From contig NZ_JANRMI010000004.1 of the NCBI RefSeq assembly GCF_029531655.1, positions 372,001 to 436,000 of the forward strand: 64,000 nt of DNA, written 5' to 3'. Below, one piece after another: positions 31,437-52,861 of this stretch (position 1 is the stretch's first letter; each line of letters starts with the position of its first letter). Below the pieces are notes generated by a model, which was not told the origin of the DNA, searched no databases, and was given only the letters and a program-made list of their open reading frames with translations. Position numbers and translations under genes: made by a program. Origin of the DNA: Bdellovibrio svalbardensis (lineage in GTDB: Bacteria; Bdellovibrionota; Bdellovibrionia; Bdellovibrionales; Bdellovibrionaceae).

Positions 31437-33221
31437 TTACTTGTTCAGGTAGAACATATAGCTCTCGCGAGCTCCGTTGAATTTGGCTAAGCACGCAGGC
31501 TTCGTCAAACTCGTCGTAATTGTCGATGACTGATAGGTCGCGAGCAATTTTGTCGCACTGATCTTTTTGATATTCAATCCACCAACTTCAATCACGCGGC
31601 AGTTCACCCAACTGTTCCCATTAACGTTCACACCCTCGTAATGCTCTTGACGAGTCATCAACGAGCCACCCGTTCCATCAACGAAAGGAGAGTACTTTTC
31701 AAAGAAGATCAAACCCTGAGGACGAATTTTATCTACAATTGCAAAGTTAGCAGCGGTTGTTGCCGACCAATCCATATCCACCTTCGGAAGACAAGCATTG
31801 GCGCGCTCCATACCAGATTGATAGTAATATTGGGAGTAACACTGAAGCTGGGCAATCTTAAGAGCCTCTGAACTAGCACCGTTAGCGATAGAAGCACAGG
31901 TCGCACCGGAAGAAATTTTGGATGCATTCAAATCATTCCAATTAAAGTTAGCATTTGCATCCACGGCATAAGACGCATCTGTCACCGCCCATTTGTTGGT
32001 GCACGTAACTGCTTTTACTGTGCCATTGATGTTGGCATTTCCAGAGCAACTCATGGTTTTAATACCACTGGTGCTGGTCGATGTGCTTCCGCAAGTGATT
32101 CCCGACCAATCATTCAAATTCACGGGATTTCCATTGGCATCAGAACAGCCACCACCCAATTGTGCCTGATAGTTGCTGCTGTTATCCGGACCACAAACCC
32201 ATGCATTGGAATAGGTCGTACCCGCAATAGTTACATCATGAGGCGCACAGTTCGGCATCATATCGTATTGCAATTTAGCCGTATCCATCTTCCAACCATC
32301 AGTTAAATTCACAGTGCCGGTCTGGCTGCTGATCTGATCTGCGAAGTTCGCAACAGAGCTTGCAAAAGAGAACTCACTATCTGCTCCGCCATTAGCGCTA
32401 AAATCCACGCCCAACGATGTTTTCATCGCTGGCGTCAGTCCGATTTTTGAGCCGCAAGTTGAAAAACTATTCTGACCTTCCCATACCTGCAAGCCATAAA
32501 TATCAGAGCTGTCTGCGATCACACTGCCCTTCCACAACTTCAAATAGATAGCCTGACCTGATGGAGGACCATGACAGGTGTTATCATTGCTATCACATGG
32601 CGCTTTGGTACCGTTCGGTAGAGAAAAATCCACGGCACCGATTGTCCAGGCGCCAGTAGGATCGAAGACTTGAGCCGCAGCCACCGTGACTGGAGCAACG
32701 ACACTTGAAATGTTTGAAGCCGGAACTGTGACTTCCCCAGCATTGGGATCAAAGTCAATCGTACCAAGGTTGGCGTCCTTTTTAAAGGCCGTCGTAGATT
32801 TGGTTTCTGCATTCCCGTTGAGATCTTTTTTTGATGAATCTGAAATCAAGAAATCTGCCGCCTTATTTCCATTACTATCAACAAGGAAGCAAGTGAGTGG
32901 CTGGCCCGTGGCACCAGCAATACTAACATTGAAAGATCCATCGCTCCCCACACTGGCTGTCGCAGTCTGCACTGGAGTCGTGTTAGTCGAGCAACTCACT
33001 TTGTAGGAACTCAAAGTCACGCTCATGGCTGAGACCGCTTCTTCTAATTGTGCAAAAGATTGCACCTTCTCCAAGCCTTGAGCACTGTTTCCCAAACTCA
33101 AGACCCCCGATACATTTAAAGCATCACCGCTGCTGGAGCTAGAGCTACCTCCGCTACAACCGGTCAATCCAAAAACCATCGTCGGCACAATACTCAATAA
33201 AATCCGTTTTGTGTTTTTCAT
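31437..33221 (-). CDS. Large lipoprotein of unknown function
   Basis: 594 residues. The signal peptide ends in the lipobox GLTGC with C22, followed by a Ser/Gly linker. The body is rich in small polar residues, with many cysteines in the second half (TCHGPPSG, NCAPHD, WVCGPDNSS, TCGSTSTS, CTNKW). The N-terminal ~100 residues after the linker (VGSDGSFNVSIAGATGQPLTC) look like a small beta-sandwich. Not recognised. It is the same type of Bdellovibrio surface lipoprotein as others in the window, in a separate transcription unit. Confidence 0.75.
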   Translation of the reverse strand: MKNTKRILLSIVPTMVFGLTGCSGGSSSSSSGDALNVSGVLSLGNSAQGLEKVQSFAQLEEAVSAMSVTLSSYKVSCSTNTTPVQTATASVGSDGSFNVSIAGATGQPLTCFLVDSNGNKAADFLISDSSKKDLNGNAETKSTTAFKKDANLGTIDFDPNAGEVTVPASNISSVVAPVTVAAAQVFDPTGAWTIGAVDFSLPNGTKAPCDSNDNTCHGPPSGQAIYLKLWKGSVIADSSDIYGLQVWEGQNSFSTCGSKIGLTPAMKTSLGVDFSANGGADSEFSFASSVANFADQISSQTGTVNLTDGWKMDTAKLQYDMMPNCAPHDVTIAGTTYSNAWVCGPDNSSNYQAQLGGGCSDANGNPVNLNDWSGITCGSTSTSTSGIKTMSCSGNANINGTVKAVTCTNKWAVTDASYAVDANANFNWNDLNASKISSGATCASIANGASSEALKIAQLQCYSQYYYQSGMERANACLPKVDMDWSATTAANFAIVDKIRPQGLIFFEKYSPFVDGTGGSLMTRQEHYEGVNVNGNSWVNCRVIEVGGLNIKKISATKLLATYQSSTITTSLTKPACLAKFNGARESYMFYLNK

Positions 33222-33525
33222 TACTCTCCCTCTTCTTTAAGTCTTCAATAGACCGCATTCTTATCGGCACCCATATAAGAAATAAGAGCTAAATTTTGAA
33301 TTATGAGATTTCTCTATGAATATGTTTCGGATGGAAACGAAAAGGTTGATGTGAGTGAACGCTCGTCTTTTCTTTCGAAACCTGCAATGAAAATAAACAA
33401 ATAATAATTTGAATACAGCCTGTGCACCGTTCCCATGTATTTTCTCATTTTATTTTGGAGCAACTTCCCTTTGTGTTGTTCAGACATATATTGAAGAAAC
33501 AATTTTAATCTGAAAGGACTTTCAA
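33222..33525. other. Intergenic region between divergent genes
   Basis: 304 AT-rich bases between the lipoprotein gene and the small exported metal-binding-like protein. It must carry both promoters. I see no hairpin, repeat or small gene that I can support. Confidence 0.4.
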
Positions 33526-38215: not shown

Positions 38216-41200
38216 TTATTGACAGAAAGGCGCCTCGGGATCTTTTTTGCATAGATATGACTTGATCATCTTGTTCTCAGATTTCAACTGCTTATTTTCC
38301 TCTTCAACAGAAGAAATTCGTCGTGACTGATCCATCAAAACTTTATGATCTTCAAACCAACGCGCATAGAATTCTTTGAAGCCGTTGATCAACATATAGG
38401 TCAAAGCCCCGTAATTAACCTGCGTCAGCTCAGTTTCCTTGTCATCTGAAGGATTCAATTTGGTTTTTACTTTAGCGGTAATTTGTGGGGCTACTTTTTC
38501 TACATCTTGAGCGATAAAACCAATACGATCATTTTTATCCTCAAGGGTTCCACCCTTACCGTTATATTTGAAATACACCGGATGAAGGCCCAAAAGCTGT
38601 TCAAGACCGATATTGAAACTATGAACATCTTTTTTTACTCTTTGATCCGAAAGACAAGTTCCCAAAGTGGACGAATTATAGTTAAGACAACCAGCCAAAG
38701 TTGCGTTACCAGCTGTCGAAAGAACCAAAGGAACAGTAGCAGTAGCTCCAGCAGTGGAAGCCGTCGTCGTAAAGAAGTTCAAACTTCCATCACCCGAAGT
38801 CGCCCCCACACCCCACTTACGAGCAGCACCGGCACTCAACTCAAGAGCTGTCGAAGTCGAAGTATCATCCCCAAAGCTAGCCACTTTCTTCCAATTGGAC
38901 GTCGTCCAAACCACCCCTGGAACAACTTGCAATGCCGCAATTGGCGTCGCGGTTCCGATTCCGACATTTCCGGACGAATTTAGAATGATGGATCCAGCAC
39001 TATTTGCAATTTTAACTTCGTAACCAGCGATATTTGTAGCAAGTCCGATAGATTTTCCTGTATTTGAACCTTCACCAACCCACCAAGTTTCTGTTCCTGC
39101 CGAGTCCTGACCTGAAATCCATCCAGCGTAAGCATTGGCGGAATTCAAATTTGCAGTGTCTTGTAACTTAATGACCGGGTTTCCCGCGCCAGCGACATGC
39201 AAAATTGAAGCAGGGGCTGCTGTCCCTATCCCGACGTTACCGCTGGATGCTATGGTCATTCTTCTCAAGGGAGTATTGTCTGCAGTCCCAGATACAGACG
39301 CTGCAGCTGTATAGAATTGAATGTCAGAGTCACCAGCTCCAGTTGATATTCCCGACTGCAAAATGAGATTCCCGCCGTGACCATCTGTCGTCCCTAAGAT
39401 GGGCGCCCCGGCATTGATAACCAAGTCAGATTGAGTGGAGCTATTCCTTTCCATTCCGATACTTCTGGCAGCCCCGCCTCTAAAGGTAATATCATAAGCT
39501 GGATTTGCCACACCCAGAGACAGCTTATAGGCTGAATTTCCAACTTTCATATATGAATTTGTGGAATCAATGAAGAGCAAATTTGTAGAGGAACCGCAGT
39601 CAGTGGTTGAGCATTTTGAAAAGGTCAGACTATTTGAGTTCCACAAGGTTCTCATAATGCTGGCGGCGCCTCCATCAAAAATGAGATGAGGCCCCAAGGC
39701 AGTATTTCCTAATACGAGTGAATTATAAATCCCGGTATAGTTGGTCGACGGATTTCCAATCAATCCAGTTCCATCAACTGTCAGCTTCTGAGAGGGCGAG
39801 GTTGTGCCAATACCGACATTTCCTGCAGAAGTAACTCTCATTCGTTCAGCAAGACCAGATGTGTTGTTACCCGTTTCAAAAACAAGAGATGACGGAACAT
39901 TCCCCGCACTCGGAGCCGTGTCGACTTTCCCAAAAATACGTGCTCCATTTGTATAACCAGATCCGTCATAACCACCAAAAGAAATTTTCCCAGTAAAGTC
40001 ATTGAGCAAGGAAGCCGTTGCCGCACCAGTAGTCCCTCTCGAGCTGAGAAGGTTAAGAGATGCTGAGTAGTCCGGTCCTGACGAATTTGCTCTTTGAATT
40101 GTCGCCATGCCCGCATCACCAGAAATATGGAGCATCGCCGATGGGCTCGTCGTTCCAATCCCAACATACCCTGTATTATCAATCGTCATACGGGTTAAGC
40201 GCGAAGTTGTACCATTCAAGGTTGTTCCAAAATCTATTTTAGATCCTTGGGCTGTTGCGGTGAAATTTTCCGCAGCCGAAATTTGTACAGCACCTGTATT
40301 TCCACCAAAAGCTCCGCCGGAATGATATCCCGTCGCATACAGCCCCATTATGCGGTCACCAGACTGCACGGCTGTCGGAGAGGCAACAGTCCCTCTGGAT
40401 TTAAAGTAACCCATAGCTGCACCATTTGTATCACTCGATGCTTGTTGAATTCGAATCCATGCACTTGTATCACGAACTACATCCAAGGGAGCTGCTGGTG
40501 TAGTTGTCCCAACCCCGACATTACCACCGCTTGGGGCTAGAATGATTTTTCCCTTAGTTGCATCAGAAGTTGAATCCAAAGTTAAAGTTCCACTCGCCGC
40601 AGAACTTCCGTAAATAATCGGAGTGTACATACTCGTCGCGGCAGACACACTTCCACTTGAATAGATATTGCCACCCGCATTGATGTTCCCACCAATACCC
40701 ACACCACCGCTGACGACCAGAGCACCATTATTCGACGCTGTTGATGCGGTTGCATTTGTGATCGTCATCACACTTGGTGAAGTAACCACACCAGTCCCCG
40801 ATGATTGCAGAGTCACATTTTGATCTGTACCGCCAGCGGCGACAATCACTGCGCCCGAAGAATTCGTCGTTACGTTCGAACCACCGGCTGAAGTTGTTAA
40901 GCTCACCCACGCTCCGCTTTGATAAATCTCTGCAAAGTTAGTCGTCGTGTTATAACGAAGCATCCCGTTCAATGGAGAAGCCGGCTGCTGCGCCGTCGTA
41001 CCATTCGGCATGCGAAGGGCATCCGTTTTTGAACCCATATCCAATGAAACAGATGGAGAGGTCGTACCAATACCAATATTGCCGGCAAAATAGTTTTTAG
41101 CAGTGGTGCTTTGTTGATAGAGACTATAATGATTCGTAACCGAGCCACCGACATTTGGCGACCCGAGGAAAATGTCATAGGAATTAGTGATCGTTCCACT

Positions 41201-42988
41201 CTTATGATAGGGAGTGATCACAATACCAGATGCCGTCGTCGTAACAGGAGTCTTTGCTCCGATGCTATTGTGTCCATAGTCAATTTGAATGCCCTGTGCT
41301 GTGCCCAAGCTACCAGAGTCTTGAGTCGCGCTTGCCGTGTTGTTTCGCATGGAAGCAAAATAGGCTGCAACAGCTTTGTTGGTATTTGTCGTTCCATCAG
41401 CAACTTGAGCCAATACATTGACGTTGAGTCCCGTGTTCTGACGAGCCACCCCGTCGGTGCTGATATTTCGAAGCTCAATAGAACTCGCGTAGGTAATATT
41501 GTTAACAGCTGACTTTTGACTACCATTTAAGTCGTCAACAAAGACATCTACGTAACCCAGACGACTTGCCCAAAGATAGTTCGTCGGATCGTTGGTAATA
41601 AATGTTCGACCATTCACTTGAAGTTTTTCTAATGGAGTCGTTGTACCAACGCCCACATTTCCAGAGGCCCGATAAACATGAGTTCCATCCGTTTGCCAAG
41701 CGCCAACATCAGCGCCCAACTTCGCAGCCGTCACGGCACCATTTGCAATAGTTGTTGCCACACTTCCCGCAGGGCTAGTCACATCACCTGTTAATCCAGG
41801 CATGCGAGCAGATGCAATTGTTCCTGCTGTGATCTGATTCGCATTGATCGCAATTGTGTTACAAACAAATGTGTCTGTGACTGATGTCCAATTCAAAGTC
41901 TGGTTCGCCGCACAGGTTGAAGGCATTTGCGCCAAATCCACTTTGCTGTTCAATGAGGTTGATAGCCCCGTGATATCAGAAAGTGCCAACGTCGCCGGTG
42001 TCCAACTTGTTCCCACATATTTCATTACCTGACCAGCCGTAGGAGCCGTCGCACTCACCGTAATGCCTTGAACTTTCGCCACCGAAGGATTTGGATAAGT
42101 GCCCGAAAGATCTCCTCCAGCACTTCCACCTGGAGCCACGCCCGCGATAGCCACATTTCCTGCAGCAGTTAAGCGACCTTGCGCATCAACAGTAAAACTG
42201 GGAACTTGTGTTGCGGAACCATAAGAACCTGCAGTCACCGCAGTATTTGCAAGACTGATTGTTCCGATTCCAGTAACCGGTCCACCAGTAAGTCCAGTCC
42301 CGGTGGAAACACTTGTCACAGTTCCACCACTGGCTCCGGAAACACCCGAACAGCCGAATTTTTTTGTAGCCGCATCCCAAGTTAAAAACTGACCGCCGTC
42401 ACAAGAAACGCTGCCGGTTCCAGGATTGTTGATTTCCGATTTAAGAATGAATGACGATGAGTCGTAAGATCCTAACTTTTGCGCCGACAAAGAATACCCA
42501 GCGAAAGGAACAGAGCGAATCACAGAGTCTGGTGAAATCATTTTCCAACCAGTCCCATCATAAAAAGAAACGCGCAATTTTCGCGAATCTCCATTCGAGG
42601 GATTGTAACTGCCAGATCCATTAGCACAAACGTAGTTGCTACCTACCAACGAACAACTTCCACAATTGAATGAAGGTGTCGCGTTGTTAAACGCATCTAA
42701 AACTGTGAATGTACCACTTAACGGATATTGAACTGTTCCGCCGCCAATAGGCACATCGAAAACACCACCGGAGTTAACCATGCTATAGCCTGTCACTTGC
42801 TCTTGATAAATTACGCAAGAACCAGCGGGTTCTGTGATCTGAAAAAGGAAACTCACAGCACCGTATTCCAATGGAGTCCCATCTGATTTAAGAATACGAC
42901 CTTGATATGTTAAAACTGACGGCGATGCATAAGATAGCGCCGAGAAAAGAAGAACCTGTAATAGCAGTACGCACCGTAGGAGATTCAT
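38216..42988 (-). CDS. Giant surface fibre with C-terminal S74 chaperone (mosaic adhesive trimer type)
   Basis: 1590 residues. Signal peptide to ~21, then a conserved head (~22-180: [50 protein letters not shown]) shared with the second fibre. The long stalk is rich in Gly, Ser and Thr with seven repeats of the VGIGTTSP kind (e.g. [16 protein letters not shown]), typical of trimeric phage-tail-like fibres. The end (~1445-1590) is an intramolecular chaperone of the S74 family: S1447 and D1448 in [10 protein letters not shown], where self-cleavage is expected, and a final coiled coil. After trimerisation the chaperone is cut off. This fits the mosaic adhesive trimer proteins that Bdellovibrio uses to contact other bacteria. 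Confidence 0.88.
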
Positions 42989-42990
42989 AA

Positions 42991-43028
42991 AGGACTTTTC
43001 GGTCCTCTTAACAGAATCCTGAAGGACC
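42991..43028 (-). promoter_or_regulatory. Competing hairpins at the RBS of fibre 1
   Basis: Read on the minus strand, GGTCCT (43028-43023), AGGACC (43006-43001) and GTCCT (42995-42991) lie in order before the ATG. The middle segment, which holds the likely AGGA ribosome binding site, can pair with either the first (6 bp) or the third (5 bp). Confidence 0.45.
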
Positions 43029-43173
43029 TTCGTTCGACTTTGAGAAAATTAGTGTTTAAACTAAGGCAAAAAAACGTCTTCCGCTCCAACTTCTCTCCTG
43101 GAGCAGTCGTCTCTCATTTAATCTGAAAAATAATACTTAAAAACAGAAAGAAATATCATAAATTCCTTCAATC

Positions 43174-43566
43174 ATGAATGAAGCTACTATTTCCGTCTCA
43201 GATTTTCTCAATGAGTTGTTTCAAAAACGTCGCTCTTTAAATCCTCGCTATTCACAACGAGCCTTCGCCCGGGACCTTGGACTGTCGTCAGGCCGTCTGT
43301 CAGAATATCTCAGCGACAAAAATATTCCAGGCCCCTCTAGTATCGAAGCCCTGCGAACTCGACTTTCGCTAGACGATCAGCAGTACAAGGCCCTCCTTCA
43401 GGCTGTAGAGCATTCAAAATCAATTAGCGCAGAGAAATCAAAACCCGTTGTACTCGCGCCTCATCATCTCGCGCAATATAAGCAGTCAACACCCATTCTG
43501 CAGTTTCCTGGGAGCACCAGCCTCGACCTGCATGACTCAAGACTTCATTTGTCTATTACACTTTAG
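43174..43566 (+). CDS. TIGR02147-type HTH protein, N-terminal domain only
   Basis: 130 residues. Residues ~8-80 match the N-terminal helix-turn-helix of TIGR02147 proteins, common in Bdellovibrionota and Fibrobacteres: FLNELFQKRRSLNPRYSQRAF, then ARDLGLSSGRLSEYLSDKN. Full members have ~270 residues; here the C-terminal half is absent and only ~50 unstructured residues follow. It is a short regulator or a remnant. It lies between the two fibre genes, divergent from the first and co-directional with the second, so control of fibre genes is an attractive guess. No strong RBS is seen. Confidence 0.75.
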   Translation: MNEATISVSDFLNELFQKRRSLNPRYSQRAFARDLGLSSGRLSEYLSDKNIPGPSSIEALRTRLSLDDQQYKALLQAVEHSKSISAEKSKPVVLAPHHLAQYKQSTPILQFPGSTSLDLHDSRLHLSITL

Positions 43567-43623
43567 AAATTAGCTAGGGTGGCGTCCCGACCTACCATTG
43601 ATTTTATTCGCAAAGCTCAACTT

Positions 43624-43658
43624 AGCATCTGCTTCACTTGTTGAAGGGAGCAGATGCT
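43624..43658 (+). other. Perfect hairpin between the HTH gene and fibre 2
   Basis: AGCATCTGCT / AGCAGATGCT, a 10-bp stem with a 15-base loop that itself contains TCA/TGA pairing. There is no T run. It could be a factor-dependent terminator, an operator, or a structure in the fibre mRNA leader. Confidence 0.6.
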
Positions 43659-43746
43659 TCATCCATCCACTGGAGAGCACAAATAGAAGTGCCGATCACA
43701 TTCCAGTAGGAATTTTTCGAATTATTTTTGGAAGGGATAACAATAG

Positions 43747-46700
43747 ATGAAAATCCTGTACGTTGTGATGAATCTCATTTTATTCTTCCTTGTTGGATTT
43801 GCACACGCCAGCCCTCAAAGTCTGACCTATCAAGGTCGGATCATGAAGTCTGATGGGACACCTTTAGAATATAATAACGTTTCCTTTATTTTTCAGATCA
43901 CTGATTCCACCGGGCAATGTTTGCTTTATCAGGAACAAGTCAATGGCATCAATATGGAAAACTCCAACGGAGTTTTTGACGTATCAATAGGACAAGGTAC
44001 TGTCGTCTACCCAACTTCAGGCTCATTTTCAATTCTCGATGCTTTCAACAACTCCGGGTCCTTCACCTGCCAAGGTGGCGTTCCCTATATAGCCTCCGTC
44101 ACCGACTCAAGAAAACTTCGCGTTCAGTTTCATGATGGAGTGGGTTGGAAACTGATCAGTCCTGACTCAACAATTCGTTCTGTTCCCTTTGCTGGCTACT
44201 CCATCTCCGCCCAAAAACTCGGCAACAATGTGGCCACAGACTTTGTTCTAAAGACAGGAATTCCCACTTGCGCCAATGGCACTTTCTTAAGCTGGGATGG
44301 CATGCAACTCAGTTGCCAAGCTGCGAGTGCAGCTTCCGCTGGAACGGTCACAAATGTCACTTCTGCCAACGCCTATATTACAATCACGAACGGAGCCTCC
44401 ACTCCACAAATAGCTTTGAACGTTGGCACCACAGCAAACACAGTTGCGTCCGGCAACGATGCACGTCTGGTGAATGCCATCCAAGTTGGTGCCGCCGCAA
44501 ATGGTGATTTGGCAGGAACCTATCCAGGACCTACGGTCATCGCACTTCAAGGTGTTCCCGTTAGTTCTACAACTCCCACCATGGGACATTTTTTAAAATT
44601 CAACGGCACAAATTGGCTCAGCAGTGCAATTGCCATCTCAGATGTCACAAATCTTTCAACTCAGCTGTCTGGATATATGACTCAGGCGGCCTTCAATACT
44701 TCGATCGCCAGCGCAAGCTGTTCTGTCAGTCAAACGATGTACTGGAATTCCGTTTCTGGAAACTTCCAATGCCAATCCATTAATGTGGGGCTCGTGGGTG
44801 ACGTGACAGGATCTATTGGCGCTGCGAAAGTTGTGGCCTTGCAGAACAACCCCGTGGATACAACAAATCCCACAAATGGTCAGGTTCTCGAATGGGATGG
44901 CTCTAAGTGGGCACCAACTACTTTACCAGCAATGAATCCTGGAACCGTGACAAACGTTTCGGGAACAGCACCGATTAGTATTGCAACAGGCACTTCAACT
45001 CCTGTTGTTTCAATTTCTCAGGCAACGACTTCTACGAACGGATATTTGTCTTCTACTGATTGGAATACCTTTAACAATAAGCAGGCTGCCGGCAATTACG
45101 TCACAGCTTTAACCGGCGATGTCACTGCTTCCGGCCCAGGTCCCGCCGCAGCGACAGTCGCAAAGCTTCAAGGCAGCACTCTGACGCTGACCTCTCCCGC
45201 CGATAAAGACTATTTAAAATTTAATGGCACCGCTTTTGTGAACTCTCCTCTTCTGGCCAGTGATTTGAGTGGAACTATTTCCGCGGCAAATCTTCCGGCA
45301 TTCACTGGCGATGTTACTTCCTCCGTGGGATCAAGTACTTTAACATTGGCTGCTGCGGGAACTGCAGGAACTTACTATAAGGTGACAACAGACTCCAAAG
45401 GTCGCGTAACCTCTGGATCAGCAGCGTTAATAGCTGCGGACATTCCCAATCTTGATTGGTCAAAAATCACCTCTGGCACACCCACAACTTTATCGGGCTA
45501 TGGCATCACCGACAGTTTAGTTAAAAACGGTGGCGGTGTTGGTACGATGTCGTCGGGAGTTGATGCAAGTAAACCAGCAAGCCCCGCAACGGGCGACCTC
45601 TTTGTCGCAACCGATACACAAAAGATCTATCGTTATAATGGAGCTTCTTGGGATCTTGTGAGTTCTGCAGGTGGTTCAGGTGGAACCATCACTGGCGTCA
45701 CTGCCGGCACTGGATTAACTGGTGGAGGAACTTCTGGAGCAGTTACTGTAAATGTGAACGCGGGAACTGCCGCAAATCAAATTGTGCAACTTGATGGATC
45801 TGCAAAATTACCGGCCGTAGATGGCAGTCAGCTTACTAATTTTCAAGCTTCACAAATTCCTAATTTAAGCGCCGCTAAAATTACTTCCGGCACCTTGGCT
45901 GTTGCTCAAGGCGGTACAGGCGAAAGCACTTACACTGATGGTCAACTTCTTATCGGCAACACTGCAACAAGTGGTCTTACTAAATCCACTCTCACTGCTG
46001 GCAGTGGTGTTTCCATTACCAATACCAACGGTGCCATCACGATCGCCGCAACTGGATCAGGTGGAACTGTAACTAATGTCACGGGAACTTCACCGATCTC
46101 GGTTGCAGCTGGTTCTTCAACTCCTGTTGTATCGATTGCAAGTGGCTCCGCAACAGGACAAACTTTGCGTTGGGATTCGACTAATTGGTCAGCGACAAAA
46201 TTGCTTTATACAGATTTAGTAAATGCAACAAGTTCAAGCCCATGGCCCGCAGCAACTTGTACCTCGGGACAAGCCGTGATCTGGAGTTCAGTAAGTGATG
46301 CCTTTGCTTGCTCAACTTTATCCATTGCAACTTCTCAACTCACTGGAACTTTGGCTGCAGCGCAAATGCCAGCCTATACTGGTGACGTCACTTCTTCTGC
46401 TGGTTCAACAACTCTAACCTTGGCTAACTCAGGTGCTACTGCAGGTACTTATAAATCAGTAACTGTCGATGCAAAAGGCCGTGTGACAGCTGGCACAAAT
46501 CCTACAACTTTATCGGGCTATGGCATCACCGACAGTTTAGTTAAAAACGGTGGTGGTGTTGGTACGATGTCGTCGGGAGTTGATGCAAGTAAACCAGCAA
46601 GCCCCGCAACGGGCGACCTCTTTGTCGCAACCGATACACAAAAAATCTATCGCTATAATGGAGCTTCTTGGGATCTTGTAAGTTCTGCAGGTGGTTCAGG

Positions 46701-48162
46701 TGGAACTGTAACTAATGTCACGGGAACTTCACCGATCTCGGTTGCAACTGGTTCTTCAACTCCCGTTGTCTCAATTCAAAAGGCCGATGCCACTCATGAT
46801 GGATACTTGGCGCAAGCGGATTGGTCTATTTTCAACAATAAATTGGGAACATCTCTAAGTTCGGGAAAAATTTGGGTCGGAAGTGGTTCCAGCGCAGCTG
46901 CCGAAGTCACTGTCAGCGGCGACGCCACTCTTGCAAATACCGGGGCATTGAGCATTGCTAACAATGCCGTCACGACTGCAAAAATGTTTGCAAATCCAGG
47001 AATCAATAGACTTGTTGCAACGGATGGAACAACTGGCAGCAATCTCGCGGCCTTTACTTGTGCCGTGAATGAGACTCTCACTTGGTCGGTGGCTAACGGC
47101 TGGCAATGTACTGCTCAAAGCTCTCTCAGTGTCGGGACCGCGACAAATTTTTCAGGAAACTTGGCGGGCGATGTCTCGGGAACACAAAGTGCTACAACCG
47201 TTCAAAAAATTCAGGGCCGCTCTGTGGCCTCAACAGCTCCTTCCGATGGCCAGGTTCTTAAGTGGAATGGGACTTCAAGTCAGTGGCAACCGGCAACCAG
47301 CGCCGGCACCGGCACCGTCACATGGATTCAAAAAAGCTCTAACTATACCGCTGTAGCTAACGATCACATTTTTGCGGATACATTCGGTGGCGCCTTCACG
47401 GTGACACTGCCCGCAAGTCCAAATGCAAATGACACTGTGACTATTGTCGATAGTACGCAAAATTTCTCAGCCAATAATCTAACAATCGGTTTTAATGGAC
47501 AGAAACTAGCAGGCAAAGTCAATAACACCTGGGGATTGAGTACTCAAGGCACATCAATCACTCTGACATATCAAGACGCCACCGTTGGCTGGGTGGTCAC
47601 AAACTATATGGCAGTCTCGACCCCTTACTCTACGGCCACCTATTGGAATCCTTCGGATAAAGATGCCAACATGATCCTGTCTAATAATAATCTTGATGTC
47701 ACTAAAACCGGAGCATCTTGGGGCACGGTCAGAGCCAACACTTATCGCTCGAGTGGCAGCTATTATTATGAAATCAAAGTTGTCGCTATCAATTCCGGTA
47801 CTCCAGCAGGTATGTTTGGTATTGCCAATTCATCCGCCACCCTGGGAAGCTATCTTGGAGCCGACTCCGGTGGTCTAGGTTATCAAGTACAAGGGTCTTT
47901 TACATATGGCGCGACTTATACGGGATCTAAACCCGCATTCGCCTTGAACGATGTCTGCGGAATTGCCGTAGACTTCACCGCTGGAACTTTGAAAATCTAC
48001 AAGAACAACGTCTATCAAGGTCAATTCACCACCCTGCCGCCTGGAAATCTTTATCCTGGAGGAAGCATTGGAAATAGCGATACAACGACTAAGCTTCGCC
48101 TGGTCACGGCAGGAGCCAATCAAACCTATTCACCACCGGCGGGCTATTCCTCTTGGGATTGA
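43747..48162 (+). CDS. Giant surface fibre with C-terminal SPRY-like tip (mosaic adhesive trimer type)
   Basis: 1471 residues. The signal peptide ends at FAHA; the head (~22-165: [50 protein letters not shown]) is homologous to that of fibre 1. The stalk has many phage-tail-like motifs (GDVTSSAGSTTLTLA, LSGYGITDSLVKNGGG, WNTFNNK). The last ~175 residues (from YWNPSDKDANMILSNNNLDV, then SGSYYYEIKV, GIAVDFTAGTLKIYKNN) form a SPRY/concanavalin-like domain known from phage tail proteins, probably the binding tip. There is no S74 chaperone. AAGGGA precedes the ATG. Two 206-base repeats lie in the stalk. Confidence 0.87.
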   Translation: MKILYVVMNLILFFLVGFAHASPQSLTYQGRIMKSDGTPLEYNNVSFIFQITDSTGQCLLYQEQVNGINMENSNGVFDVSIGQGTVVYPTSGSFSILDAFNNSGSFTCQGGVPYIASVTDSRKLRVQFHDGVGWKLISPDSTIRSVPFAGYSISAQKLGNNVATDFVLKTGIPTCANGTFLSWDGMQLSCQAASAASAGTVTNVTSANAYITITNGASTPQIALNVGTTANTVASGNDARLVNAIQVGAAANGDLAGTYPGPTVIALQGVPVSSTTPTMGHFLKFNGTNWLSSAIAISDVTNLSTQLSGYMTQAAFNTSIASASCSVSQTMYWNSVSGNFQCQSINVGLVGDVTGSIGAAKVVALQNNPVDTTNPTNGQVLEWDGSKWAPTTLPAMNPGTVTNVSGTAPISIATGTSTPVVSISQATTSTNGYLSSTDWNTFNNKQAAGNYVTALTGDVTASGPGPAAATVAKLQGSTLTLTSPADKDYLKFNGTAFVNSPLLASDLSGTISAANLPAFTGDVTSSVGSSTLTLAAAGTAGTYYKVTTDSKGRVTSGSAALIAADIPNLDWSKITSGTPTTLSGYGITDSLVKNGGGVGTMSSGVDASKPASPATGDLFVATDTQKIYRYNGASWDLVSSAGGSGGTITGVTAGTGLTGGGTSGAVTVNVNAGTAANQIVQLDGSAKLPAVDGSQLTNFQASQIPNLSAAKITSGTLAVAQGGTGESTYTDGQLLIGNTATSGLTKSTLTAGSGVSITNTNGAITIAATGSGGTVTNVTGTSPISVAAGSSTPVVSIASGSATGQTLRWDSTNWSATKLLYTDLVNATSSSPWPAATCTSGQAVIWSSVSDAFACSTLSIATSQLTGTLAAAQMPAYTGDVTSSAGSTTLTLANSGATAGTYKSVTVDAKGRVTAGTNPTTLSGYGITDSLVKNGGGVGTMSSGVDASKPASPATGDLFVATDTQKIYRYNGASWDLVSSAGGSGGTVTNVTGTSPISVATGSSTPVVSIQKADATHDGYLAQADWSIFNNKLGTSLSSGKIWVGSGSSAAAEVTVSGDATLANTGALSIANNAVTTAKMFANPGINRLVATDGTTGSNLAAFTCAVNETLTWSVANGWQCTAQSSLSVGTATNFSGNLAGDVSGTQSATTVQKIQGRSVASTAPSDGQVLKWNGTSSQWQPATSAGTGTVTWIQKSSNYTAVANDHIFADTFGGAFTVTLPASPNANDTVTIVDSTQNFSANNLTIGFNGQKLAGKVNNTWGLSTQGTSITLTYQDATVGWVVTNYMAVSTPYSTATYWNPSDKDANMILSNNNLDVTKTGASWGTVRANTYRSSGSYYYEIKVVAINSGTPAGMFGIANSSATLGSYLGADSGGLGYQVQGSFTYGATYTGSKPAFALNDVCGIAVDFTAGTLKIYKNNVYQGQFTTLPPGNLYPGGSIGNSDTTTKLRLVTAGANQTYSPPAGYSSWD
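45481..45686 (+). repeat. Internal repeat of fibre 2, copy 1
   Basis: 206 bases coding for TTLSGYGITDSLVKNGGGVG and the following ~48 residues. It recurs exactly 1020 bases later with five differences, all at synonymous sites. Confidence 0.92.
46501..46706 (+). repeat. Internal repeat of fibre 2, copy 2
   Basis: Second copy of the 206-base repeat. The following ~70 bases also resemble 46061-46137, so the whole block looks assembled from reused stalk segments. Confidence 0.92.
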
Positions 48163-48165
48163 TAT

Positions 48166-49008
48166 TTAGAATCTGCCGGTCAGATAGATCTGCGGCCCGA
48201 GATATTGATAGTTGAAGCTCCCTTTCCATTTGGCACCTTCAACATCAACGTCAAAGCTAAACCAGTTCACAGCTAAGCCAGCGCCCACATAGTTAGAAAA
48301 CCACCAGTCAGTGTTAACATTGGCGGTGGCTATATTTCCCTGAAAATCCATATTCGAAGCTGCTACTTTGTATGAAAAGACCCCGATGTTCCCGCCAACG
48401 CTCCATTCTGGAAAAATATAATAAGTTAAATCCAGACCTATAAGCGGTAATGGCGCAACAGCATCTGCTCGCGCATGAGCGGCCCCACCTGCACCACCTA
48501 CGGTTGCACTGCCATTGGCATCAAAAGTAATCGTAGACCACTGCAAACCAAAGGTTCCTGCAAACTCCCATTCGTCAGTTTTTATAAATGAAAAAGAATA
48601 GGAAATTGGTATCACCGTAAAGTCGATGGCCGAACTGACAGTCGCCCCTGCCGCATATGTATTGTCACCAATGGTAATGTCTTTATTCAACACGTGATCG
48701 CTACCCCGATGAAAGCCAAAGTAGCCCAGTGACAGACGATTACGGGGCGACATTCGCCAAGTGGCATTTCCCATAATGGTTGTTGTTTCGTGCTTGAAAC
48801 CCAGGTCATCTTCCAGATTCACTTCATCGCCAATGGTGCCATTCGCGTTATCCACACGCAGTTTTGTGTCGAATGAAGGAAGAAAATATCCCAACTGGAA
48901 TAGAAACATCTCTTCACCCGGATAAACCTCATCGGCAACAGCCGATTGTGGCATAATACAAAATATAAAGAGCCCAATTAAGGCCAATAAACTACGCGCT
49001 TTCTTCAT
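48166..49008 (-). CDS. Outer-membrane beta-barrel protein
   Basis: 280 residues. Signal peptide ends at SAVA. The mature part alternates beta strands (ATWRMSPRNRLSLGYFGF, VIPISYSFSFIK, FAGTFGLQWSTITF, SVGGNIGVFSYKV, YLGPQIYLTGRF) and ends in phenylalanine, as expected for a BAM substrate. About 8-10 strands; function unknown. Convergent with fibre 2, three bases apart, so it is not co-transcribed with it. Confidence 0.82.
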   Translation of the reverse strand: MKKARSLLALIGLFIFCIMPQSAVADEVYPGEEMFLFQLGYFLPSFDTKLRVDNANGTIGDEVNLEDDLGFKHETTTIMGNATWRMSPRNRLSLGYFGFHRGSDHVLNKDITIGDNTYAAGATVSSAIDFTVIPISYSFSFIKTDEWEFAGTFGLQWSTITFDANGSATVGGAGGAAHARADAVAPLPLIGLDLTYYIFPEWSVGGNIGVFSYKVAASNMDFQGNIATANVNTDWWFSNYVGAGLAVNWFSFDVDVEGAKWKGSFNYQYLGPQIYLTGRF

Positions 49009-49177
49009 GATGATCGTTCTCCGAATTCAGTCATCCAAGATACTTTGAAGACAATCATATTCATTAATGGCTTTTTTCGAATCTGCGTAAATGCACCAAT
49101 GAGAAATTGTCTTTGTCATAAATCAAACGGATTTTCTCTGGTCCTCATTGCAACGACCAACTTATGCTCTAGCCATC

Positions 49178-50398
49178 ATGAAAACATCACCCCACGGATC
49201 CAACATATTCAATACCCATCTCCTAAATAAAGAGCGAAATTTTTCATTGGTGCTCGGTGGACCTCTTTATCAGCTCTTGATGAAGGCACATCTGACAGGA
49301 GAAGCGCCACAAATAGTCCGACGTCGTATCATATTCTTTATCTTCGTAACTTGGGTTCCACTCATGGTGCTGTCCGCGCTGGAAGGATTTGCCTGGGGAA
49401 ACAGTGTTAAACTGCCTTTTTTATATGACCTAGAGATGCACGTCCGCTTGCTGCTGGCTTTGCCGCTGTTGCTCATCGCAGAACTCGTCGTCAACAAACG
49501 AATGGGGCCCGTAGTGAGTCAGTTTATAGAACGGGGAATTATCCAAAAAATTGACCATGCTAAGTTCGATGCCGCCATTGACTCAGCAATGAGAATACGA
49601 AATTCAATTGCCGCCGAGGTTTTATTGATTGCATTTGTTTACGTGGTTGGCGTGGGCTACATTTGGAGAACCCAGCTAGTCATTGATGTTTCAAGTTGGC
49701 ATGGCATAGCGGCCGATGGAAAAATGAAATTGTCTCTGGCTGGTTGGTGGCTGGGGCTTATAAGTCTTCCCTTCTTCCAGTTTTTACTTTTGCGCTGGTA
49801 TTTTCGACTGTTCATCTGGACCCGTTTTCTGTGGCAGGTTTCGCGTTTTAAATTGAATCTGATGCCAATGCATCCGGATCGTTGTGGAGGCTTGGGTTTT
49901 CTGGCAGCAATAAGTCACGCGTTCGCTCCTTTGCTCTTGGCCCAGGGGACAATGCTTGCGGGAATGATTGGCAGCCGCATTTTCTTCGCCGGAGCAAAGC
50001 TCCCCGATTTTAAATTGGAACTTTTCGGATTGGTGGGGTTGATGGTCTTTGCCATTCTCGGCCCGCTCTTGGTGTTCGCTCCAGAGCTTGAAGAAGCAAG
50101 ACGCAAAGGCACCCGCGAGTTTGGAACCCTGGCACAATATTATGTGCGCGAATTCGACAAGAAATGGCTTCGTGGCGGTGCCCCCAAGGAGGAACCGCTC
50201 ATCGGGAGTGCAGACATCCAATCACTTGCTGACTTAGGAAATAGCTTCGATGTTGTCAAAGAGATGAAGCTGTTTCCATTCAACACGCATACCATATTGC
50301 ACCTTGGAGTCGCCACGCTGCTACCTGTATCGCCTCTGCTGCTGACGATGTTTTCTCTCGAAGAACTGCTTCAGAATCTGCTGAAAATGGTTTTCTGA
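49178..50398 (+). CDS. Polytopic inner-membrane protein of unknown function
   Basis: 406 residues from ATG 49178 (MKTSPHGS); the frame reaches 49148. About six hydrophobic segments are visible, e.g. IIFFIFVTWVPLMVLSAL, LLLALPLLLIAELVV, AAEVLLIAFVYVVGVGY, LISLPFFQFLLLRW, LFGLVGLMVFAILGPLLVF and a C-terminal one. The loop MHPDRCGGLGFLAAISHAF is distinctive and recurs, in my memory, in unnamed membrane proteins of several phyla. No enzyme motif is recognised. Single gene. Confidence 0.72.
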   Translation: MKTSPHGSNIFNTHLLNKERNFSLVLGGPLYQLLMKAHLTGEAPQIVRRRIIFFIFVTWVPLMVLSALEGFAWGNSVKLPFLYDLEMHVRLLLALPLLLIAELVVNKRMGPVVSQFIERGIIQKIDHAKFDAAIDSAMRIRNSIAAEVLLIAFVYVVGVGYIWRTQLVIDVSSWHGIAADGKMKLSLAGWWLGLISLPFFQFLLLRWYFRLFIWTRFLWQVSRFKLNLMPMHPDRCGGLGFLAAISHAFAPLLLAQGTMLAGMIGSRIFFAGAKLPDFKLELFGLVGLMVFAILGPLLVFAPELEEARRKGTREFGTLAQYYVREFDKKWLRGGAPKEEPLIGSADIQSLADLGNSFDVVKEMKLFPFNTHTILHLGVATLLPVSPLLLTMFSLEELLQNLLKMVF

Positions 50399-50446: not shown

Positions 50447-52861
50447 CTAGTCATTACTTGTCCTGTATTGTGCGCTCTGGCTCTCAGCCTGCTCTTGCGC
50501 CAATTTTTCCTTCATAGGTAGAGGTTTCAAGTCTACAGTTAACTTATTCAAAGTCCCCGTAAACTTAAAAGGCATATTGTTAGCATAATCTTCAATCACC
50601 GGCGTTCCTGTATCCTCCCCAACATCGAAGGTTTCATCCAAAGAAAATCGCACTCCGACCGTTCTGGGAATCTGCCCTTGAGCCACTTGTTTCCCATCTA
50701 TGTATAGAGTTCCCGTCCCCCCTTTACCGATTCCTCCGCCGTTATAGGCAAAATCAAAGCGCAGTATGTGACGACCCGAAGGAACGACCTCAGAACTAAT
50801 GACTTTGTACTTGTGTTGTTCTTGGTTCGAAAGTGCATGAACAAACATAGGCTTACCATTCAGCATCAATAATCCGAGTCCCCCGAATCGTCCCCCTAAA
50901 GTTGCCAAAACTCCCTCTGCCTTTTGGTCTTTGGCAATTTCTATATCTGCCGTGATTGAATAAGATCTGTTTTTAAAGTTAGGTGCCGAGCCCTCTGGAA
51001 TACGAATCGCTCCCTCATGATAGACAAAGGTATCACGACCACGAGTAAGGCTTGGACGAATCGCTGGATCTGCCCGCTCTGCGAAACTCGAATCCAATGG
51101 AAGTACATTATATTTTGCAGCCTCTCGCCAGAATATATTTTGCAGTTCTTTCAATTTTTGCGGATTCTCGCCAGCCAGATTCTTTGATTCACTAAAATCC
51201 TTATCGACATTGTAAAGTTCCCAGGCAAAGTCTTCGGGGCTAGGTGACAGCCCTACGGTATCCCAGGGCAAGCGTTTAGGAGTGGTCGCAGCCACCCAAC
51301 CGTCTTTATAGATCGCCCGGTTGCCAACCATCTCGAAATATTGAGTTGTATGTTTGGACTTCTCTTTGCTGTTATTGAAAGTATAAGCCAAGCTCGTCCC
51401 TTCAATTGGTTTTTGCTTCACTCCATTCAATTCTTTAGGGGCTTTAATCCCAACGACTTCATAGATAGTCGGAGCAATATCGATCACATGGGCAAATTGT
51501 TCGCGAAGAGTGCCCTTGTCATTAATTCTTTTGGGCCAAGAGATAACCATGCCATTGCGGGTACCGCCAAAATGCGAAGCCACCTGTTTAGTCCATTGGA
51601 AGGGGGTATCCATCGCAAGAGCCCAGCCAACTGGATAATGATTATAAGTTTTAGGACCCCCCAGCTCATCAATCATTGAGAGCAAGTATTTTATATCTTC
51701 AGTCACGCCGTTAGCCGCAGTAGCTACTTCATTTGTGGTTCCCTGCATAGTCCCTTCGGCACTCGCTCCATTGTCACCTTGAATATAAATGACGATTGTA
51801 TTGTCGCTCTTACCAGCCTCAGCCACCGCATTCAAAACTCTGCCAATTTGAAAATCGACATGTGCCAATGCTCCTGCATAGACCTCCATCATACGTGAAT
51901 AGACTTTCTTTTGATCTGCATTCAAAGAATCCCATGCAGGAATTTCTTTAGGTCGTGCCGTGAGTTGGGTGTCTGCAGGAATAACACCCATTTTTTTCTG
52001 ACGTGCAAAGGTTTCTTCACGAACCTTATCCCAACCTTGATCAAATTTTCCTTTAAATTTCGCAATCCACTCTTTAGGCGCGTGATGAGGAGCATGAGTC
52101 GATGGCGTTGCGTAGTACACAAAGAATGGCTTGTCGGGCGCAACCGCCGCGTGATTTTCAATATATCGGATGGCATTGTCTGCAAGATCGTTCTCAATAT
52201 GATAGCGAGGATTTTTTAGATGAGGCTCGATAGGCTGGGTTCCACTATAGAGGGCCGGAGCATAGTTATGAACATCGCCCCCAAGAAAACCATAAAAGTG
52301 ATCAAAGCCCAAACTTGTTGGCCAAAGATCAAAAGGTCCAACAGAACTACTTTGCCAATCAGGCACATTATGATTTTTCCCAAACCAAGCGGTGCTATAT
52401 CCATGTTGTCTTAAAACTTCGGCCATGGAACCAGCACTCTTCGGCATCAAGCTGCTATAGCCGGGGTAACCGGTGGCCATCTCTGAAATAACCCCTGTGG
52501 CAACACTGTGGTGGTTTCGTCCAGTCAAAAGAGCCGCCCTTGTCGGCGAACAAAGGGCTGTCGTATGAAATTTATTATAGCGAAGTCCATTTTGGGCCAG
52601 ACGATCAAAAGTCGGTGTTTGGATCGGCCCCCCAAATGTACTGCTTGCGCCAAAGCCCGCATCATCTGTTAATATCAGGACAATATTCGGAGCATCTTTG
52701 GGCGGAGTAATCTCTTTGGGGAAATCAGACTTAGATTCTTTGACGGTTCGTCCAATCTTCCCTTTAAATGGCGGTTCCGGACGAGGCAAAATATCTTGTG
52801 CGTAGACTGAATTTCCAAATAATGTGACGAATGTAAATATCGAAGCCATGGACTTTTTCAC
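50447..52861 (-). CDS. Exported arylsulfatase
   Basis: 804 residues, longer than the ~500 of typical sulfatases because of a C-terminal beta-rich domain (~600-780) with LamG-like character. The signal peptide ends at YAQ. Catalytic residues: D66-D67 for calcium in LILTDDAGFG, and C104 in CSPTRAALLTGR, the C-x-P-x-R site converted to formylglycine. GKNHN and DNGASAEG are further sulfatase marks. It removes sulfate esters in the periplasm or outside; the substrate is unknown. The divergent FGE-like gene probably supplies the modification. Confidence 0.92.
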   Translation of the reverse strand: MKKSMASIFTFVTLFGNSVYAQDILPRPEPPFKGKIGRTVKESKSDFPKEITPPKDAPNIVLILTDDAGFGASSTFGGPIQTPTFDRLAQNGLRYNKFHTTALCSPTRAALLTGRNHHSVATGVISEMATGYPGYSSLMPKSAGSMAEVLRQHGYSTAWFGKNHNVPDWQSSSVGPFDLWPTSLGFDHFYGFLGGDVHNYAPALYSGTQPIEPHLKNPRYHIENDLADNAIRYIENHAAVAPDKPFFVYYATPSTHAPHHAPKEWIAKFKGKFDQGWDKVREETFARQKKMGVIPADTQLTARPKEIPAWDSLNADQKKVYSRMMEVYAGALAHVDFQIGRVLNAVAEAGKSDNTIVIYIQGDNGASAEGTMQGTTNEVATAANGVTEDIKYLLSMIDELGGPKTYNHYPVGWALAMDTPFQWTKQVASHFGGTRNGMVISWPKRINDKGTLREQFAHVIDIAPTIYEVVGIKAPKELNGVKQKPIEGTSLAYTFNNSKEKSKHTTQYFEMVGNRAIYKDGWVAATTPKRLPWDTVGLSPSPEDFAWELYNVDKDFSESKNLAGENPQKLKELQNIFWREAAKYNVLPLDSSFAERADPAIRPSLTRGRDTFVYHEGAIRIPEGSAPNFKNRSYSITADIEIAKDQKAEGVLATLGGRFGGLGLLMLNGKPMFVHALSNQEQHKYKVISSEVVPSGRHILRFDFAYNGGGIGKGGTGTLYIDGKQVAQGQIPRTVGVRFSLDETFDVGEDTGTPVIEDYANNMPFKFTGTLNKLTVDLKPLPMKEKLAQEQAESQSAQYRTSND

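Follow-up and report, generated by a model that had tools for sequence, protein, structure and literature searches.

Predicted FliA-type promoters at a constant spacing to the start codon in Bdellovibrio fibre genes, and a divergent pair of mosaic adhesive trimers around a truncated helix-turn-helix protein

The mosaic adhesive trimer (MAT) fibres of Bdellovibrio are the best candidates for prey recognition by a bacterial predator. For the family as described from B. bacteriovorus HD100 (Caulton et al. 2024, PMC10769870), the main text presents tips of the S74, β-sandwich, TNF-like and C-type lectin kinds, and the term helix-turn-helix does not occur in that main text. FliA is named as a global regulator of attack phase, with the consensus TTAAG-N16-CCGATA (PMC3627812, Karunker et al. 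2013), and its attack-phase regulon in B. bacteriovorus includes surface anchors and flp genes (PMC3627812; PMC5430801). Compared here with these systems is a locus of Bdellovibrio svalbardensis (GCF_029531655.1, NZ_JANRMI010000004.1, 372,001-436,000; this 64-kb stretch is the window, and coordinates are window positions), in which two divergent genes for giant exported fibres, MAT1 and MAT2, flank a gene for a 130-aa helix-turn-helix (HTH) protein. The strongest new result is a promoter rule for MAT genes, which as judged from the sequence covers MAT1 and not MAT2.

The rule was drawn from 121 MAT genes in ten genomes of the genus (L009-L030, L131-L230). Counting back from the start codon, the motif CCGA occurs between -40 and -6 in 96 of the 121 genes, compared with a mean of 13.8 and a maximum of 23 in shuffled sequences, and in 64 of them the -10 box (CCGA) begins at exactly -14. 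With the start codons aligned, the genes display a pattern of roughly C-T-Y-A-A-G at -36 to -31 followed by CCGATAAG at -14 to -7. As MAT genes are paralogues and near species share orthologous MAT pairs, the box could be an inheritance from a common ancestor and not a working FliA promoter with a leaderless start. However, clustering on upstream identity leaves 56 of 113 genes with an exact -14 box, and the average over positions -100 to -41 is then 0.06 bits per position, and the pattern is therefore not one of simple paralogy. The box also agrees with the published attack-phase consensus (PMC3627812) and is carried at the same spacing by non-MAT genes, and shared ancestry is in our judgement an improbable explanation. 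In the host genome, the commonest spacing between CCGATAAG and a following ATG is 6 nt, with 11 of 66 matches and 6 for the next highest; only three of these 11 genes are MATs, and a number of the rest encode exported or membrane proteins.

The generally accepted distance from a σ28 -10 box to +1 serves to place the start of a transcript. A pyrimidine is found at -1 in 63 of the 64 MATs with the exact box and in 13 of 25 without a box (P 2e-7), which is expected if the RNA begins at the A of the ATG, and a Shine-Dalgarno-like sequence is present in only 3 of 64 versus 11 of 25 (P 3e-5). The position of the promoter, the -1 pyrimidine and the scarcity of Shine-Dalgarno-like sequence together lead to the prediction that MAT genes with the exact box are transcribed into leaderless mRNAs, and in this genus roughly half of the fibre genes, or more, appear to share the start-codon-fused FliA layout. 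If true, fibre synthesis would be tied to Shine-Dalgarno-free translation, which may suit non-growing attack-phase cells. Fusion of promoter and start codon in scores of fibre genes provides a testable rule for attack-phase fibres, combining FliA with leaderless translation and flagging the exceptions. The word leaderless is absent from PMC3627812, PMC5430801 and PMC12622784, and no report of leaderless FliA transcripts in Bdellovibrio was found in a literature search of the main texts of openly accessible papers. As a separate observation, 13 of the 39 MATs that have no -14 box carry the motif GG[AG][AG]CGT in the 100 nt upstream of the start, where 0.55 would be expected; of the 82 MATs with the box, 1 has it. 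The motif is partly Shine-Dalgarno-like and otherwise unexplained (e.g., L145, L150, L225 and the host genome's own L026 and L028).

MAT1 follows the rule closely. Its FliA-type site scores 18.1 bits when the site itself is left out of the model, is the top site on both strands of the window, and has -35 and -10 boxes at consensus spacing. The predicted +1 coincides with the A of the ATG and is preceded by a T at -1, and these features, along with the lack of a Shine-Dalgarno sequence, suggest a leaderless MAT1 mRNA starting at the AUG. MAT2 lacks the exact -14 layout; its predicted leader carries GGAAGGG close to the start codon. The exact promoter of MAT1 as opposed to the weak site and leader of MAT2 suggests that the two fibres likely differ in both transcription strength and translation mode, and they are thus probably expressed differently. 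FliA is a better candidate than the HTH protein for a regulator shared by MAT1 and most other MATs, less clearly so for MAT2. The second-best FliA-type site of the window (33221-33253, minus strand, 16.7 bits, predicted +1 at 33253) is situated 32 nt before the ATG of a 594-aa open reading frame (ORF) at 31437-33221.

Both giant exported proteins are, by their sequences, strong members of the published MAT family (PMC10769870). The NCBIfam model NF053851 (Bdello_MAT_N, cutoff 60), which describes the conserved β-rich head following the signal peptide, gives 216 bits for MAT1 (E 2.5e-64) and 238 bits for MAT2 (E 5.1e-71), and the stalk of MAT1 matches the solved B. bacteriovorus MAT fragments 8oml, 8on4 and 8ond, deposited under the names cell wall surface anchor family protein and bd2133. 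The variable tips are of different kinds, with a Peptidase_S74 domain at residues 1447-1502 of MAT1 (44.2 bits, Pfam cutoff 22), in which the SDxxxK catalytic motif is complete, and a SPRY domain at residues 1339-1442 of MAT2 (30.1 bits, cutoff 26.3). These data, with the three ORFs at the places given in Table 1, agree with a preliminary description of the locus as two giant exported fibres pointing away from each other, one ending in S74 and one in a SPRY-like domain, and related to the mosaic adhesive trimers. The same description had the fibres share a head of ~150 residues and differ in their stalks; the sharing holds, and its extent is larger, as similarity spans ~400 residues of head and proximal stalk at 43% identity. 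The two fibres are additions to a known family, and one of them has a rarer tip; the host genome (3.9 Mb, 10 contigs) contains 22 MAT heads, 16 S74 domains and ~27 TIGR02147-type HTH genes.

The SPRY tip of MAT2 represents an extra adhesive module in the known fibre family. Among 14 genomes, SPRY is found above cutoff just twice, each time inside a MAT reading frame (in the host genome, G000, and in G006). The last 170 residues of MAT2 align with the C-terminus of the 983-residue virion protein UYA98901.1 of Xanthomonas phage DoCa8, with 95% of the tip aligned at 37% identity, and also with proteins of the Burkholderia phages FLC6 and FLC8, and a pattern scan of viral contigs returned no relatives of the tip. 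The nearest solved structures by sequence are the SPRY domains of RanBP9/10 (E 1.2e-7), and a structure model of the SPRY domain from the single sequence was unusable (pLDDT 36). The MAT2 stalk contains an in-frame direct repeat of 221 nt, 95% identical and with copies 1020 nt (340 codons) apart, and recombination between the copies could change the length of the stalk, in either direction, without loss of frame.

The homologous heads in opposite orientation raise the question of a switch by inversion or recombination, through which the fibres would exchange promoters or tips, in line with the switchable fibre set proposed in the preliminary description. The best inverted matches between MAT1 and MAT2, however, are just 113 nt long (71% identity) and 47 nt long (79% identity), and none of at least 40 nt with a 12-nt exact seed occurs across the locus. 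The candidate was rejected for want of suitable arms; inversion at the locus is unlikely, and a switch of this type is scarcely credible.

The HTH protein between the fibres is, from its sequence, a TIGR02147 regulator reduced to a lineage-specific stub. Of the earlier designation as a 130-residue TIGR02147-type HTH, the size and place are confirmed and the family assignment is weakened to TIGR02147-like: the protein scores 19.9 bits against a cutoff of 50, over residues 10-78 only, and of the two-part architecture of the family (HTH and a C-terminal domain at ~100-271) it matches only positions 12-81. A model of 17 full-length relatives yields 84 bits, also limited to model positions 8-95, and no remnant of the C-terminal domain is found in the three forward frames 3′ of the gene. 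The genome_contigs database holds six distant HTH relatives, of which the four with a mapped HTH gene, from Oligoflexia/Deltaproteobacteria metagenome-assembled genomes (L051-L054), are long and have an exported-protein gene downstream.

TIGR02147-type HTH genes and MAT genes are truly associated in the genome. In the host genome, 7 of 27 TIGR02147 genes are located within 3 kb of a MAT, whereas the figure for response regulators is 1 of 50 (P 0.002, Fisher test), and seven genomes have at least 10 near pairs among the matches listed, compared with 1.9 expected. The relatives' MAT and TIGR02147 counts are lower bounds, and the association is unevenly spread, with the host genome supplying most near pairs of the seven-genome set. 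Downstream of the nearby complete relatives there is mostly an exported-protein gene (~200-480 residues), often with ends that overlap (L109-L126). Many of these exported proteins are interrelated and carry GNGG and HExx(Y/P) motifs, with sub-threshold matches to PhageMetallopep, and the regulator and exported protein possibly constitute an undescribed module.

On this background, the HTH protein could be a dedicated local repressor or activator acting at the divergent MAT1/HTH promoter region, and perhaps also upstream of MAT2, to set which fibre is made. Its HTH domain is intact (48-49% identity to full-length relatives), the gene order is divergent, the enrichment of TIGR02147 genes near MATs fits such a role, and the same genome contains a second divergent MAT pair (G000:C1:1119712-1139644; L110, G000:C1:1112000-1131500) with two full-length TIGR02147 and exported-protein operons between; a 10-bp inverted repeat also precedes MAT2. 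However, the protein is missing its C-terminal domain and has no exported partner gene at the locus, unlike many complete relatives, and a short-form counterpart is found in none of the other 23 genomes of the genus (24 searched, E 1e-12). No operator-like element common to both intergenic regions was found either, their best local match scoring no higher than shuffles (P 0.25). A local switch by the HTH protein is a minority reading that retains some weight, and the co-regulation of the fibres by this protein, as first proposed, is not borne out.

The giant MATs of the host genome may be regulated in another way. All four (3152-4029 aa, divergent heads, L025-L028) have an adjoining TIGR02147 gene, and no FliA site is found at these genes, which suggests that MATs may fall into two regulatory groups. 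Across the genus, HTH-adjacent MATs are less often leaderless by prediction (8 of 18 versus 73 of 107), as a trend only (P 0.06). We lean towards the view that most Bdellovibrio prey-recognition fibres are made from leaderless mRNAs whose FliA promoters are fused at single-base precision to the start codon, with the fibres outside this class, such as MAT2 and the giant MATs, forming a second regulatory group of which some are tied to TIGR02147-exported-protein operons.

Taken as a whole, the locus is best explained, with good probability, as a head-to-head pair of paralogous MATs around an HTH stub, in which MAT1 is FliA-driven and leaderless, MAT2 is separate, and the HTH protein is no main switch. 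The MAT membership, the distinct tips and the truncation of the HTH protein are evident from the sequence, and the remaining steps are proposed. RNA polymerase with FliA (σ28) would transcribe MAT1 in attack phase, and since the A of the ATG has the canonical spacing to both the -35 and the -10 box, the mRNA would be leaderless and the fibre translated without a Shine-Dalgarno site. MAT1 would then trimerise, the S74 chaperone would cut itself off, and the fibre would be displayed. MAT2 would be transcribed separately, with a leader, from a weaker or different promoter, and the HTH protein would be a lineage-specific remnant or a local modulator. Coordination with other MATs would occur via FliA rather than via inversion or the HTH protein of the window.

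Several points weigh against this explanation. The -10 box of MAT1, CCGAAAAG, is a variant of CCGATAAG, and the best FliA-like site of MAT2 is weak, with 9.0 bits at -55 compared with 8.1 (95th percentile) and 11.6 (99th percentile) in shuffled 200-bp regions. The start codons of the promoter set were picked by a rule, as an ATG near the signal peptide, although this rule is unable to create a promoter match, and the transcript +1 is a prediction from the position of the promoter. In view of the enrichment of their genes near MATs, the complete TIGR02147 proteins may also have a regulatory link to the fibres.

The features of the locus are collected in Table 1. Beyond MAT2, a 280-aa exported protein with no Pfam match, resembling an outer-membrane barrel as judged by eye, is encoded on the minus strand (48166-49008) with 3 nt between its end and that of MAT2, and an exported sulfatase (50447-52861, minus strand, PF00884, 210.8 bits) is encoded near the fibre pair. 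The right-hand neighbour at 49148-50398 has an orthologue in only 1 of 13 relatives, with no MATs around that orthologue.

Table 1. Features of the divergent fibre locus in window coordinates; the last row gives positions elsewhere in the host genome (G000).
Feature	Position	Strand	Basis
MAT1, exported mosaic adhesive trimer fibre, S74-terminated, 1590 aa	38216..42988	-	ORF; Bdello_MAT_N 2.5e-64; stalk matches 8oml, 8on4, 8ond
MAT1 Peptidase_S74 chaperone/autoprotease domain, SDxxxK intact	38483..38650	-	Pfam match and ORF translation
MAT1 N-terminal head (Bdello_MAT_N)	42437..42955	-	profile match at G000:C4:414437-414955
Putative FliA/σ28-type MAT1 promoter, CTTCAG-N16-CCGAAAAG, predicted +1 = 42988	42995..43026	-	18.1 bits leave-one-out
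130-aa HTH protein, TIGR02147-type DNA-binding domain without C-terminal domain	43174..43566	+	ORF; profile matches
Perfect 10-bp inverted repeat, 15-nt spacer, without T-run, between HTH gene and MAT2	43624..43658	+	
Weak FliA-like site 5′ of MAT2, 9.0 bits, 55 nt before ATG	43668..43699	+	promoter-model score
MAT2, exported mosaic adhesive trimer fibre, SPRY-terminated, 1471 aa	43747..48162	+	ORF; Bdello_MAT_N 5.1e-71
MAT2 N-terminal head (Bdello_MAT_N)	43777..44256	+	profile match at G000:C4:415777-416256
MAT2 stalk in-frame direct repeat, copy 1, 221 nt	45481..45701	+	repeat comparison
MAT2 stalk in-frame direct repeat, copy 2	46501..46721	+	repeat comparison
MAT2 SPRY tip domain, common to C-terminus of Xanthomonas phage virion protein	47761..48072	+	Pfam; sequence alignments
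Giant MATs	G000:C1:386098, C2:106275, C2:313395, C1:1129111		

With the MATs known from B. bacteriovorus HD100 (PMC10769870) the fibres have in common a signal peptide, the NF053851 head, a long repetitive stalk and an S74 or non-S74 tip, and differ in that the SPRY tip of MAT2 goes unnamed in the main text of that work. The same kind of tip is present in phage virion proteins with a C-terminal SPRY domain, whereas the bacterial fibre bears a MAT head and signal peptide. The window protein shares the N-terminal HTH of the TIGR02147 family but ends after it with an unrelated 45-residue tail and is under the NCBIfam cutoff. With respect to the FliA attack-phase regulon (PMC3627812; PMC5430801), the MAT pattern is close to the published consensus, and the difference is that the spacing between box and start codon is constant in these MAT genes, from which leaderless mRNAs are predicted.

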